Part shown: positions 49,307-53,956 of the stretch, piece by piece
Layout: each line of letters opens with the position of its first letter
Numbering within the stretch: the first letter of the stretch is position 1
Source of the DNA: Flavobacterium sp. H122
Lineage (GTDB): Bacteria; Bacteroidota; Bacteroidia; Flavobacteriales; Flavobacteriaceae
NCBI RefSeq assembly: GCF_004959765.1
Contig: NZ_SJZD01000002.1
Location: 124,001 to 188,000, forward strand
Reading direction: 5' to 3'
DNA length: 64,000 bases
Program-made: the position numbers and the translations under genes
Notes under the pieces: generated by a model
What the model saw: the letters and a program-made list of their open reading frames with translations, nothing else
The model's database searches: none
What the model was told of the DNA's origin: nothing

Positions 49307-51205
49307 ATGAGTGACGCAATTAAACACGAATGCGGAATTGCACTTTTGCGATTAAAAAAACCTTTAGAATACTACAAAGAAAAATACGGTACAGCTTTTT
49401 ATGGTGTAGAAAAAATGTACCTGCTTCTTGAAAAACAACATAACCGCGGACAGGATGGTGCAGGTTTGGCAAGTATAAAACTGGATGTTGAACCGGGAGA
49501 AAGATATATAAGCCGGATCCGTTCAAATCAGGCACAACCTATTCAGGATATTTTTGGACAAATTAATGCCAGAATAAGTCAGGAATTGGAACTTCACCCG
49601 GAATATAAAGATAATGTGGCACTTCAAAAAGAACATATTCCTTATGTAGGTGAGGTTTTCTTAGGGCACGTACGTTACGGTACTTTTGGTAAGAACAGTA
49701 TTGAAAATGTTCATCCCTTTTTACGTCAGAATAACTGGATGCACCGTAATTTGATTGTAGCCGGAAACTTTAATATGACCAATGTAAAAGAGTTGTTTCA
49801 GGATTTAGTGCGATTAGGTCAGCATCCTAAACAAATGGCAGATACGGTAACTGTGATGGAGAAGATAGGTCATTTTCTTGATGATGAAGTGACAGATTTG
49901 TATCAGGAGTGTAAAGAAAACGGTTTGTCAAAACGCGAAGCTTCTCCGGTTATTGCAGAAAAACTGAATATTGGCCGTATTTTAAGAAGAGCTTCTAAAA
50001 ACTGGGACGGAGGTTATGCAATGGCTGGTTTAATAGGTCATGGTGATGCATTCGTAACCCGTGATCCTGCAGGTATCCGTCCTGCATATTACTATCAGGA
50101 TGACGAGATAGTTGTAGTGGCTTCAGAAAGACCTGTGATTCAAACAGTTTTTAATGTTCCTTTTGATGCTATTCAGGAAATTACTCCTGGTCATGCTTTA
50201 ATTATTAAAAAAGACGGAAGAGTAATCGATGAAAAAGTCAGAGAAGCTTCGGTTAAGAAAGCATGTTCTTTTGAACGTATTTATTTTTCCCGTGGAAGCG
50301 ATGCGGAGATTTATCAGGAAAGAAAAGAGCTTGGGAAACTGATCATGCCGGCTGTATTGAAAGCTGTTGGCCATGATACAGAAAATACTGTTTTTTCATA
50401 TATACCTAATACTGCCGAAACTTCTTTCTTCGGGATGGTTGAGGCTGCCAATGATTATTTGAACCAGCACAAGATTAATCTGATTCTTGAAAACAAAGAC
50501 AATCTTTCGGCTGATAAATTAAAAGAGATTTTAGATGTTAAACTCCGTTCTGAAAAGATTGCCATAAAAGATGTGAAGCTTCGTACATTTATAACAGAAG
50601 ACAGTTCGCGTGATGATATGGTGGCGCATGTTTACGATGTAACGTACGGTGTGATAAAACCAACAGATAATCTGGTAATCATTGATGATAGTATTGTTCG
50701 TGGTACTACATTGAAGAAAAGTATCATCAAAATGATGGATCGTTTGAATCCTAAAAAGATTGTTATTGTTTCTTCAGCGCCGCAGATCCGTTATCCGGAT
50801 TGTTACGGAATTGATATGGCTAAGTTGGAAACGTTGGTAGCATTTCAGGCAATGCTGGAACTTCTAAAAGAAAATAATAAATATTATCTGGTAGATGAGG
50901 TTTATGCCAAATGTAAAGCGCAGGAACACCTGAATGATTCGGAAGTGGTAAACTATGTAAACGAATTGTATGAACAGTTTACTGATGAACAGATTTCAGA
51001 TAAAATTGCGGTAATGCTTACAGAACCGTCGGTAAAAGCAGAAGTAAAAATTATTTTCCAATCGGTTGCCGATTTGCATAAGGCATGTCCTAAAAATTCA
51101 GGGGATTGGTATTTTACAGGTGATTACCCTACTGATGGCGGTAACCGTGTAGTGAACAGAGCTTTTATGAATTTCTATGAAGGGAAGGACGCCAGAGCGT
51201 ACTAA
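49307..51205 (+). CDS. purF: Amidophosphoribosyltransferase
   Basis: A 632-residue enzyme, longer than the E. coli form. The N-terminal class-II glutaminase has its candidate nucleophile at C9 (HECGIALLR), not at residue 2, so an N-terminal propeptide would be needed if Cys must be exposed. The phosphoribosyltransferase site is VIIDDSIVRGTTLKKSI. It makes phosphoribosylamine, the first step of purine synthesis. The C-terminal 100 residues are an extension typical of Bacteroidota. Confidence 0.9.
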   Translation: MSDAIKHECGIALLRLKKPLEYYKEKYGTAFYGVEKMYLLLEKQHNRGQDGAGLASIKLDVEPGERYISRIRSNQAQPIQDIFGQINARISQELELHPEYKDNVALQKEHIPYVGEVFLGHVRYGTFGKNSIENVHPFLRQNNWMHRNLIVAGNFNMTNVKELFQDLVRLGQHPKQMADTVTVMEKIGHFLDDEVTDLYQECKENGLSKREASPVIAEKLNIGRILRRASKNWDGGYAMAGLIGHGDAFVTRDPAGIRPAYYYQDDEIVVVASERPVIQTVFNVPFDAIQEITPGHALIIKKDGRVIDEKVREASVKKACSFERIYFSRGSDAEIYQERKELGKLIMPAVLKAVGHDTENTVFSYIPNTAETSFFGMVEAANDYLNQHKINLILENKDNLSADKLKEILDVKLRSEKIAIKDVKLRTFITEDSSRDDMVAHVYDVTYGVIKPTDNLVIIDDSIVRGTTLKKSIIKMMDRLNPKKIVIVSSAPQIRYPDCYGIDMAKLETLVAFQAMLELLKENNKYYLVDEVYAKCKAQEHLNDSEVVNYVNELYEQFTDEQISDKIAVMLTEPSVKAEVKIIFQSVADLHKACPKNSGDWYFTGDYPTDGGNRVVNRAFMNFYEGKDARAY

Positions 51206-51258: not shown

Positions 51259-51289
51259 TTTGAATACAATATTAATCAGTCTAGCTTTG
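51259..51289 (+). promoter_or_regulatory. Consensus promoter of twin small-RNA unit 1
   Basis: TTTG (51259-51262), a spacer of exactly 19 and TAGCTTTG (51282-51289) match the Bacteroidota consensus. The predicted transcript start is at or near A 51294. Confidence 0.65.
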
Positions 51290-51293
51290 CTTC

Positions 51294-51366
51294 ACCATTA
51301 CATAAGTAGGTTAAGTTTATGGTAGATTTGGGGCAAAAAGGGTAGAAAGGAATTTCTACCTTTTTT
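51294..51366 (+). ncRNA. Putative small RNA, copy 1 of a tandem pair
   Basis: A unit of about 73 nt begins four bases after a consensus -7 box. It has a short 5' hairpin (ACCAT 51294-51298 with ATGGT 51319-51323), a conserved unpaired stretch containing GATTTGGGGCAAAAA and a terminator hairpin. Copy 2 at 51559-51628 is nearly identical outside the terminator stem. No convincing protein is encoded: the frame from the internal ATG stops after eight codons. Confidence 0.6.
51341..51366 (+). terminator. Terminator of small-RNA copy 1
   Basis: GGTAGAAA (51341-51348) pairs with TTTCTACC (51353-51360), loop GGAA, then TTTTTT. It could also end purF transcripts. Confidence 0.85.
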
Positions 51367-51451
51367 ATTTTATATACTTTTCTTTTTTTGCCCTTCTTTT
51401 TTATTCTTCTTTATTTTTTCTGCCGAATAAGAACTTAATGTTAAAATTACA

Positions 51452-51467
51452 TCACCAAATTTGGTGA
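51452..51467. promoter_or_regulatory. Perfect 16-nt palindrome, possible operator
   Basis: TCACCAAATTTGGTGA is its own reverse complement. It lies between the two small-RNA units, about 55 bases upstream of the -33 element of copy 2. Confidence 0.4.
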
Positions 51468-51522
51468 GTAAAAAAAGACGTTTCATCTCGTTGTCGACTT
51501 TTTTATCTGTTTACCGATTTTG

Positions 51523-51554
51523 TTTGTTTTATTCAAATTCCGAACATACATTTG
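51523..51554 (+). promoter_or_regulatory. Consensus promoter of twin small-RNA unit 2
   Basis: TTTG (51523-51526), a spacer of 20 and TACATTTG (51547-51554). The distance from this box to the ACCAT start is four bases, the same as in copy 1. Confidence 0.65.
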
Positions 51555-51558
51555 ATTC

Positions 51559-51628
51559 ACCATTACATAAGTAGGTTAAGTTATGGTAGATTTGGGGCAA
51601 AAAAGGCAGGAGCAATCCTGCCTTTTTT
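51559..51628 (+). ncRNA. Putative small RNA, copy 2 of a tandem pair
   Basis: This unit repeats copy 1 with one 1-nt indel over the first 46 nt, keeps the 5' hairpin (ACCAT 51559-51563, ATGGT 51583-51587) and the GATTTGGGGCAAAAA stretch, and ends in its own terminator. The frame from the internal ATG reads on for about 35 codons and shares only seven residues with copy 1, so coding is unlikely. Confidence 0.6.
51605..51628 (+). terminator. Terminator of small-RNA copy 2
   Basis: GGCAGGA (51605-51611) pairs with TCCTGCC (51616-51622), loop GCAA, then TTTTTT. Relative to copy 1, two base pairs have changed on both sides. Confidence 0.85.
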
Positions 51629-51700
51629 ATTTTATATCGGTTGCGGTTTTTCAGATTGCCGGATGCGGTTCTCGAATTGTTGGCTGAGGCTCCCGAAGCC

Positions 51701-51752: not shown

Positions 51753-52358
51753 TTATTTTGCTTCAGCATAACGTCTGGCTACTTCAGACCAGTTAATCAC
51801 ATTAAAGAAAGCTTCAATATAATCAGGACGGCGGTTTTGATAGTTTAAGTAGTAAGCATGTTCCCAAACATCCATTCCTAAAATTGGAGTTCCACCACAA
51901 CCTACACCCGGCATCAAAGTATTATCCTGGTTTGGTGTGCCGCAAACTTCAAGTTTTCCGTCTTTAACACATAACCAAGCCCATCCTGAACCAAATTGCG
52001 TAGCGCCTGCTTTAGAAAAAGCTTCTTTGAAAGCAGCAAAACTTCCGAAAGATGAATTAATAGCATCAGATAATTCTCCGGTTGGTTCACCACCGCCATT
52101 TGGAGACATTACTGTCCAAAATAAATTGTGGTTGTAAAAACCACCGCCATTGTTGCGCACAGCAGCTTTGGTCATGTCAAGATTTTTAAGGATTTCCTCA
52201 ATTGATTTTCCTTCTAAATCAGTTCCTGCTATAGCAGCATTTAAATTTGTTGTATAAGCATTGTGATGCTTTGTATGGTGGATTTCCATAGTTCTTGCAT
52301 CAATATGTGGTTCCAATGCATCGTATGCATAAGGTAATTGCGGTAACTCAAAAGCCAT
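51753..52358 (-). CDS. Superoxide dismutase (Mn/Fe family)
   Basis: A 201-residue enzyme. Metal-binding and signature segments are present: [30 protein letters not shown] and [19 protein letters not shown]. Residue patterns do not let me choose Mn or Fe safely. It faces the twin small-RNA region convergently. A minus-strand TAnnTTTG box (52396-52403) may be its promoter. Confidence 0.93.
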
Positions 52359-52537: not shown

Positions 52538-53956
52538 ATGAAACACTTATTTTCCATAATCATATCGTTGCTTTTTGTACACCAAAATTATTCTCAAAAC
52601 TTTTTGAATTACAAAGTAAGCAAGCTTTACTGTGTTTTAAATTTCATGCAGACAGCGTCCGGAGCGCAGGCAACATCACCTTCTTTTAAGGAATTTATCA
52701 ATTTGAAAACGCAGCATAATTTGGAATTCAAAAAGCTGGTCGCAGATTTTTCAAAACTGAATCTGTATCATAACATCATCAAAACTGATTTTCCAAAGAA
52801 CCGGGATCAAAATAATTCAACTTATGATTTGATAGCTATGCATGCCGTTAATTCAGTGGATTTTAATGAATTTAAAATGAAATGTCTGGGGCTGATTCCT
52901 ATAGAAACAAATCAAAAAATGATTGCTCTGCTGAAATCGGCTGAACAAGTATATGATAAAATAATCTGGAACGAATACAAACCGAAAATTGAAAAACAAC
53001 TAGCCGAATTGTCAAAATACGAAAATGCGAACATGCAGATTTTTAATAAGATAAAGGCATTCTATGATTCAACCTGGTCTGAAGATATTCCTTTTCAGAT
53101 AGCAATTTACCCAATTCCCGGGGTAAATGGATTTTCTACCGCAACGCCCCACATCAATAGTTTGTGTGTAGGGGTTTTAACCGATGAAACCGACTATAAC
53201 TCAAGGAATGGAGCAGTACTTCATGAAATATGCCACATGCTTTATAAGGAACAGCCACGGGACAAACAGTTTGAAGTTGATCAGTATTTTAAAGATAATA
53301 ATACCATCTATTCGAAACATGCTTATTCGTATATGGATGAATCTGTGGCAACAGCTATAGGTAACGGCTGGGCTTATAAAAAAATAAGCGGTAAAATTGA
53401 TGAAAATGACTGGTATGCCAATAAAACCATAAACGATTTTGCAAAGGTGTTGTATCCAAAAGTAGAGGAATATCTGGAAAAGGGTAAGACAATAGATAAA
53501 GAATTTGTTGACAATGCAATTGCGGTTTTTTCAAAGAAATTTCCAAAATCAATTTATGATTACTCGATTTTATTAAACAGTTGTTTTGTTTATGCCGATG
53601 ATATGAGCGAAATGGAAGCGGTAAACAGCCTGAGTGATTTTTTTCAGATTTACAGTCTCAATTTTTCTGCCTCAATTTTGCATTCAAACAACTTTAATCT
53701 GACTGACGATTCGAAAGACACACGGGTTTTCATAATTCATAAAAATCAGCTGCAGACACTAAGCTCCTTAAAAAAAATCTTTCCGCAGATCCAGGATTAT
53801 GAATTTAAAAAACAGCCAATGACTTTGAGTTTCTTCGATAATGACGGTAGAGCTGTAATTATTCTTGTTTTAAATAATAAAACAGAATTAGGCGGTGAAT
53901 TGCTGAAAATGAGGAATAAGAATTTTTTTGATATAAAGAGTCCGCTTCAACAATAA
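52538..53956 (+). CDS. Secreted putative zinc metallopeptidase, unknown family
   Basis: A 472-residue protein with a signal peptide (MKHLFSIIISLLFVHQNYSQ). The motif HEICH at residues 229-233 matches HExxH, and E268 in MDESVATAIGNGW could be the third zinc ligand, as in gluzincins. The rest is helical with no recognised domain. It is followed by the AddA-like gene after 16 bases. Catalysis is inferred from the motif only. Confidence 0.6.
   Translation: MKHLFSIIISLLFVHQNYSQNFLNYKVSKLYCVLNFMQTASGAQATSPSFKEFINLKTQHNLEFKKLVADFSKLNLYHNIIKTDFPKNRDQNNSTYDLIAMHAVNSVDFNEFKMKCLGLIPIETNQKMIALLKSAEQVYDKIIWNEYKPKIEKQLAELSKYENANMQIFNKIKAFYDSTWSEDIPFQIAIYPIPGVNGFSTATPHINSLCVGVLTDETDYNSRNGAVLHEICHMLYKEQPRDKQFEVDQYFKDNNTIYSKHAYSYMDESVATAIGNGWAYKKISGKIDENDWYANKTINDFAKVLYPKVEEYLEKGKTIDKEFVDNAIAVFSKKFPKSIYDYSILLNSCFVYADDMSEMEAVNSLSDFFQIYSLNFSASILHSNNFNLTDDSKDTRVFIIHKNQLQTLSSLKKIFPQIQDYEFKKQPMTLSFFDNDGRAVIILVLNNKTELGGELLKMRNKNFFDIKSPLQQ

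Follow-up and report, generated by a model that had tools for sequence, protein, structure and literature searches.

Qrr and LhrC are homologous or multicopy small RNAs (sRNAs) that share a seed and overlap in their targets, and IstR-1 (target tisB) and OhsC (target shoB) are trans-encoded antisense RNAs of type I toxin-antitoxin systems with long complementarity to the leader of a gene for a small peptide. For a chromosomal sRNA, complementarity in trans of about 40 nucleotides (nt) is unusually long. Within the Bacteroidota, FopS and GibS of Bacteroides thetaiotaomicron are described, in the part of the report available to us, as multicopy sRNAs of about 65–70 nt that have canonical σABfr promoters and pair with envelope-protein mRNAs close to the start codon (PMC11697453). 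In Flavobacterium psychrophilum, the accessible text of a further report gives Rfp11, Rfp13, Rfp15, and Rfp18 as conserved in other species (PMC9723704). Here we describe an sRNA family from the Flavobacteriaceae, a large and common family in which post-transcriptional control has been little studied. It was recognized in a stretch of 64,000 nt from Flavobacterium sp. H122 (contig NZ_SJZD01000002.1, positions 124,001 to 188,000; hereafter the window), where two copies lie in the gap between purF and sodA. From comparative sequence evidence we consider it likely that the RNA is a multicopy, trans-acting antisense regulator that blocks translation initiation of the mRNA for a CAP-domain lipoprotein and that represses a small protein as well.

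The copies in the purF–sodA gap are offset by 265 nt and are 88% identical across the aligned stretch. Read in the window sequence, both have the order TTTG, 19 or 20 nt, TAnnTTTG, 4 nt, ACCAUUACAUAAGUAGGUUAAGUU(U)AUGGU, linker AGAUUUGGGGC, A-tract, terminator. A first-pass annotation of the window had pointed out these tandem units, with the same offset and the same spacing up to ACCAT, together with a conserved GATTTGGGGCAAAAA stretch, the terminators, and 15 identical bases after the stem, and direct reading bore it out on each of these points. The two copies are the sole matches in the 3.33-Mb genome of the strain at E ≤ 0.001, and they have an identical seed, as is the mark of sibling sRNAs. 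Among 149 records of the locus, a set in which the strain's own genome is present several times and in which overlapping and partial records and one spurious record (L031) are included, 63, 59, 16, 10, and 1 carry one, two, three, four, and five copies, respectively; 86 carry at least two.

Each copy has what appear to be its own promoter and its own intrinsic terminator, a mark of trans-acting base-pairing sRNAs, and we infer from these signals that the units are transcribed. Among 242 distinct instances of the family, a −7 box (TAnnTT(T/C)G or TAnnTTTA) ends exactly 4 nt 5' of ACCAT in 159 and lies 3–6 nt 5' of it in 182, versus 13 of 242 for shuffled flanks. Because the box stands at a fixed spacing before ACCAT, this motif is probably the 5' end of the RNA. 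Of the 182 instances with such a box, only 63 have an exact TTTG 17–22 nt upstream, 53 of these at 20 nt. The boxes bear on a simpler explanation, namely, that the units are only purF terminators or fragments of the purF 3' untranslated region and not independent genes. The conserved position directly 3' of purF speaks for it: purF is at the same locus in 131 of the 149 records (some of them partial), purF and sodA together in 108, and purF at 41 of 49 further loci (three of the 49, L209–L211, being without the core). Nevertheless, each copy has its own −7 box at fixed spacing, conservation covers a hairpin and a linker that termination does not need, and copies exist without purF on the locus (L163 and L181–L183), all of which makes this explanation very improbable.

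The structure of the RNA is conserved. Compared with dinucleotide shuffles, the folding z-scores are −3.5 for copy 1 and −4.8 for copy 2 (−3.0 and −5.4 when the 3' ends are extended). The 45 instances that we aligned were required to have a fixed geometry, with a 30-nt hairpin and ten or more pairs in the terminator stem. In the two helices together, 98.4% of the cells are paired and ten pairs are changed on both sides, the pairing percentage of the terminator being selected because the alignment demanded that stem. Hairpin 1 had been chosen on sequence and not on pairing, and its helix has 97.5% of cells paired and three pairs changed on both sides. Four of five structure measures for this alignment were above all 500 shuffles, the fifth was equaled by one shuffle in 500, and slid versions were all lower. 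In 58 diverse instances that were unselected for pairing, six of the eight pairs predicted by RNAalifold are changed on both sides. All five outer pairs of hairpin 1 are possible in 206 of the 242 distinct instances, with ACTAT/ATAGT (two instances) and ATCAT/ATGAT (one) as compensated forms, and the minimum free energy of the terminator region lies between −12.1 and −20.7 kcal/mol in all 242. The matched changes between the two terminator stems of the window, to which the first-pass annotation had drawn attention, are present, and compensatory changes occur in both helices across the family. Both loop and linker are near-invariant in the alignments, the invariance of the linker being overstated because instances were partly chosen by that core. 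No conserved open reading frame (ORF) was found in the unit by inspection, the only means used, since the A-tract and terminator differ in length; the annotation had likewise seen none that was plausible. Its suggestion of a duplicated small RNA is supported by the compensatory changes, the conservation across the family, the −7 box at a fixed distance, and the usual place 3' of purF. The units thus look like real sRNA genes, apparently copies of a noncoding RNA of about 74 nt that consists of a 5' hairpin, the linker, and an intrinsic terminator and has its own promoter.

The first-pass annotation had named absence of the core from related genomes as a result that would refute it, and this did not come about: BLASTN gave matches in relatives within the genus at E values down to 1e-23. 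In all, 31 of 60 genomes (the strain's own included) match at E ≤ 0.01, all from the one genus Flavobacterium, three of them (G018, G024, and G033) only through terminator-like repeats. At least 118 GTDB genome stretches contain the 19-mer core; seven of them are labeled more broadly than, or other than, Flavobacteriaceae. Two of the stretches, L072 and L079, had been candidates for a second type of sRNA; we rejected this, as they are the opposite strand of target sites 3' of scoB (see below). A covariance model (R1), built from the 45 instances and with E values that are rough, matched 214 of 249 Flavobacteriaceae genomes (203 of 235 genera) at E ≤ 0.01. At E ≤ 1e-7 it matched 201 genomes, and the other 13 may be noise. 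Outside the family, at E ≤ 0.001, it matched 15 genomes in an order-level sample of 148 and 11 in a phylum-level sample of 198, none better than 5.0e-6. The best of these, the only one inspected (L209, from the order sample), is a terminator only, near what looks by eye like rpmF. There is thus no credible family member outside the Flavobacteriaceae in these samples, as judged from that match.

A further mark of trans-acting base-pairing sRNAs, complementarity that is conserved and falls in translation-initiation regions elsewhere in the genome, is found as well. The antisense 12-mer TTGCCCCAAATC, searched for exactly in 37 genomes, matched a few places besides the sRNA genes. In the genome of strain H122 a site lies in codons 6–9 of a gene for a lipoprotein of 167 amino acids (aa), within a 13-nt perfect match to codons 5–9, and the protein has a Pfam CAP domain (PF00188, E = 1.8e-12). 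A second site in this genome was discarded, as it runs antisense to its gene. In the rest of the genus (seven sites outside it, in G037, G038, G043, G045, and G049, are excluded), of eight stretches from seven genomes only that from G005 led to a CAP gene. Its site, TTTGCCCCAAATCTAT (L262, reverse strand, around 1488), lies 37 nt past the gene's stop codon, and the leader of that gene contains a further stretch of about 35 nt that is antisense to loop plus linker.

To assess complementarity without regard to the sites, CAP genes were gathered by protein search (phmmer recognition), with loci obtained for 30 of 36 and 30 of 55 matches. In the genus, 22 of 34 CAP ORFs were above the 99th percentile of shuffled windows. 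Full sites in the genus are 34–43 nt long, have the consensus AGTTTGCCCCACAATCTACTTTAAACTTAAACTACTA, and end a few bases from the start codon. An antisense score of 11 or more was reached by 20 of 32 CAP windows in the genus versus 0 of 37 neighboring genes (two discovery loci excluded), and by 20 of 30 CAP windows in other genera versus 3 of 50 neighboring genes. Across 1051 gene starts surveyed in all loci, no score above 12.5 was seen for the 987 non-CAP genes, and 26 of 64 CAP genes scored 13 or more. Shuffled sRNAs reached a score of 11 in a mean of 0.7 and a maximum of 15 of 64 CAP windows versus 42 of 64 for the real sRNA, a comparison in which the 64 windows include loci fetched by their site and the control used one of the two cores. 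Outside the genus the site, just before the CAP start codon, often consists of two modules, CCAAATCTA facing the linker and ACTTAACCTA facing the loop, with the stem of the sRNA skipped, or of the loop module alone.

Cognate pairs from five genomes of the genus, chosen for strong sites, have predicted duplex energies of −45 to −52 kcal/mol (z −8 to −10). The two sRNAs of strain H122 give −29.8 kcal/mol with their own CAP gene (z −3.8 and −4.4; 0 of 300 shuffles as good) or, with a longer window, −33.9 and −33.0 kcal/mol (z −5.1 and −4.7). Three chosen pairs from other genera give about −31 kcal/mol (z −2.8 to −4.4). The two genes also occur together: among 36 genomes of the genus, a CAP match is present in 25 of 27 with the sRNA and in 0 of 9 without it (Fisher 5.8e-7, a value that ignores common descent). 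Absence of the sRNA from the nine is judged by BLASTN, with terminator-like noise discounted; the antisense profile R2, which picks up sRNA genes as well, found nothing in eight of them and a weak match (E = 0.002) in G035.

Several observations weigh against a role for the RNA at CAP genes. A score of 11 is not reached in 12 of 32 CAP windows in the genus and 10 of 30 in other genera, where sites are short and the three chosen pairs have z-scores of −2.8 to −4.4. Strain H122 is itself without a long leader site and would rely on the 13-nt match in the coding region. The relative G329 (purF 91% identical) carries the sRNA and shows no site in its CAP leader, and six genomes with the sRNA (G001, G032, G345, G073, G182, and G102) have no CAP match at E ≤ 1e-10. 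The co-occurrence statistic is uncorrected for phylogeny. Finally, a 17-mer antisense pattern with three mismatches gave 4+8 sites in strain H122, the two sRNA genes included, versus 5+9 for the reversed-pattern control. The exact 9-mer GCCCCAAAT gave 7+11 sites in that genome versus 5+3 for its control, with no clear start-codon site beyond the sRNA genes and two CAP sites. A co-variation of loop bases between sRNA and target (T with A in 13 of 16, A with T in 5 of 5) is suggestive but was given no weight because it is essentially one clade-level switch and some of the sites are doubtful.

Two further observations concern the CAP genes. The Rhodobacter lipoprotein DalA was considered as a relative and rejected, and we take no function from it (PMC10470522, in so far as that report is accessible), because the match scores 24 bits, far below the NCBIfam cut-off of 200. 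The promoter regions of the CAP genes in two Flavobacterium genomes (L256, ~1388–1412; L262, reverse, ~840–860) have in common a box, AGTTTATCGA, that sits between TTTG and the −7 element and is possibly a regulator site.

When 67 genomes were scanned with a profile of the leader motif, matches fell in the sRNA genes (on the opposite strand), in CAP leaders, and, outside the genus, 3' of scoB. A protein search for ScoB matched 35 of 38 genomes, from which 30 loci were taken; 18 of 27 non-discovery loci were above the 99% null 3' of scoB, one of the 18 (L403) with its match away from the ORF described next. The antisense sites flank the start of an unannotated ORF of about 40 aa, present in 23 of 32 loci when L072 and L079 are counted, with the consensus M(N)xxAPNLPxPT....KLxE....TLRLLKSxLxLTKKIFML. 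Comparisons of its middle part show differences at 50% of first, 35% of second, and 60% of third codon positions, a pattern that fits coding sequence. Four of the peptides had no match in Pfam, three tested against NCBIfam had a chance-level match only, and in strain H122 the ORF was not seen 3' of scoB. Predicted small proteins ending in LTKKIFML are encoded 3' of scoB in many of the Flavobacteriaceae genera examined (L330–L332 and L374–L403).

At some scoB-region loci two antisense sites lie within one short leader, as might be expected if the CAP and small-ORF leaders acted on the sRNA as sponges, or if pairing stabilized or activated the mRNA by opening an inhibitory structure. We regard this as unlikely: the sites abut or cover the start codon, as is typical of repression, and one to five sRNA copies per record argue for a regulator in excess. 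A quite different possibility is that the RNA mainly binds a protein, for titration or as a scaffold, that loop and linker are near-invariant because a protein recognizes them, and that the antisense sites are secondary. The near-invariant (in part, selected) loop and linker and the multiple copies would suit such a role, and both features are also known in protein-binding RNAs; antisense copies of loop plus linker at the starts of two unrelated genes are, however, not predicted by it, and we give it only a small chance.

We favor instead repression by antisense pairing. The locus would make two near-identical sRNAs of about 74 nt, each from its own promoter and ended by its own terminator, whose 5' hairpin would present the loop AUWAGUAGGUUAA and whose linker would be single-stranded. 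Loop and linker would pair with the translation-initiation region of the CAP lipoprotein mRNA, in strain H122 through the 13-nt seed at codons 5–9, and in other genera the same surfaces would have a second partner, the leader and opening codons of the ~40-aa gene 3' of scoB. The phylum hardly uses Shine-Dalgarno pairing; sites at or just before the start codon in such a phylum point to a steric block of initiation. The most likely outcome would be exclusion of the ribosome, perhaps along with cleavage of the duplex, so that the sRNA would repress an envelope lipoprotein and a small protein, and extra copies would probably add dose. The comparisons establish the conserved structure, the distribution, the synteny, and complementarity to the targets beyond controls; the direction and outcome of regulation, and any cleavage, we infer, and repression rather than activation is an assumption, which counts against the proposal. 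A bolder form of it, a double antisense circuit in which an ancient, family-wide, multicopy sRNA represses both the CAP lipoprotein and the scoB-side peptide, acting on the peptide like a trans-encoded type I antitoxin and using nearly its whole 5' half as antisense surface, is improbable.

Features of the purF–sodA region in window coordinates (for matches to model R1, contig position minus 124000)
Feature	Position	Strand	Basis or remark
Copy 1 −33 element TTTG	51259..51262	+	read in sequence; 19 nt before −7 element
Copy 1 −7 element TAGCTTTG (TAnnTTTG)	51282..51289	+	4 nt before ACCAT
Copy 1 putative sRNA, ~74 nt, inferred ends	51294..51367	+	R1 match 51294–51369, 88.4 bits, E 2.7e-18
Copy 1 5' hairpin ACCAU...AUGGU, conserved loop region AUAAGUAGGUUAA	51294..51323	+	pairing across instances
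Copy 1 linker AGATTTGGGGC, near-invariant, single-stranded, proposed seed	51324..51334	+	alignments; antisense sites in target genes
Copy 1 intrinsic terminator	51335..51366	+	folding; pairs changed on both sides
Copy 2 −33 element TTTG	51523..51526	+	read in sequence; 20 nt before −7 element
Copy 2 −7 element TACATTTG	51547..51554	+	4 nt before ACCAT
Copy 2 putative sRNA, ~71 nt, inferred ends	51559..51629	+	R1 match 51559–51631, 91.3 bits, E 4.9e-19
Copy 2 linker AGATTTGGGGC	51588..51598	+	as copy 1
Copy 2 intrinsic terminator	51599..51628	+	sequence and folding
purF, conserved upstream neighbor	49307..51205	+	same locus in most relatives
sodA, usual convergent downstream neighbor	51753..52358	−	sodA in 118 of 149 records, several partial

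Directly 3' of copy 1, at 51383–51393 of the window, TTTTTTTGCCC complements the GGGCAAAAA of the sRNA, possibly by chance. Between sodA and a gene for a UvrD-type helicase, a 472-aa ORF (52538–53956) is without a Pfam match at E ≤ 0.001; it has a homolog in two relatives (L142 and L206), and at many loci the helicase gene is near sodA without it. Elsewhere, L034, L078, and L133, like L163 and L181–L183, have a single sRNA copy without purF on the locus, and the copies in L034, L182, and L183 adjoin genes for Lys/Glu-rich secreted proteins. L101, a contig labeled Lentimicrobium sp., carries a Flavobacterium-like purF, sodA, and sRNA array and is probably mis-binned.

Rfam 15 had no match in the window at the gathering threshold (the best sub-threshold match was STnc50, with 24.7 bits against 55), and a literature search over titles and the openings of abstracts, in which the sequence itself was also queried, did not find the RNA or its targets described. 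The annotation's "possibly undescribed" fits both results, within the limit that one of the Rfp1–89 transcripts of F. psychrophilum, whose sequences were not compared, could be the same RNA (PMC9723704, as far as that report is accessible). About 200 of the 249 genomes sampled carry this sRNA family, which Rfam 15 lacks and whose targets can be read from sequence. It offers a first handle on the control of a conserved, uncharacterized CAP lipoprotein and points to an unannotated family of small proteins, and the covariance model and target motif could enter annotation pipelines.

How, then, does the family compare with known systems? From what is accessible of the report on FopS and GibS (PMC11697453), it resembles them as a multicopy Bacteroidota sRNA that would pair near the start codons of envelope-protein mRNAs. 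Homology to FopS was considered and rejected: the published 35-nt consensus matches the core at chance level (best local match 7 nt, p 0.16–0.28), and the shared R1/R1' seed is not found. Unlike FopS, which by the same account has several scattered loci and susC-like targets, the copies here sit in tandem next to purF, with matches to CAP lipoprotein genes. Rfp18, in the accessible description (PMC9723704), has a third stem-loop and metalloprotease targets, whereas the RNA here has two hairpins and other targets, and the two are set apart on that description. As with OmrA and OmrB, to judge from the part of the report available (PMC12692685), we are dealing with homologous siblings that have a shared seed and overlapping targets, in a different phylum. 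Unlike OmrA/OmrB, Qrr, and LhrC, with which the sequences were compared through Rfam, pairing here extends up to about 40 nt in some species. Meanwhile, the family resembles IstR-1/tisB and OhsC/shoB in being a putative trans-encoded antisense RNA with long leader complementarity and with a peptide of about 40 aa as one target. It differs from type I toxin-antitoxin systems in that no toxicity is known, the sRNA and its targets are at separate loci, and the main target is a CAP lipoprotein.
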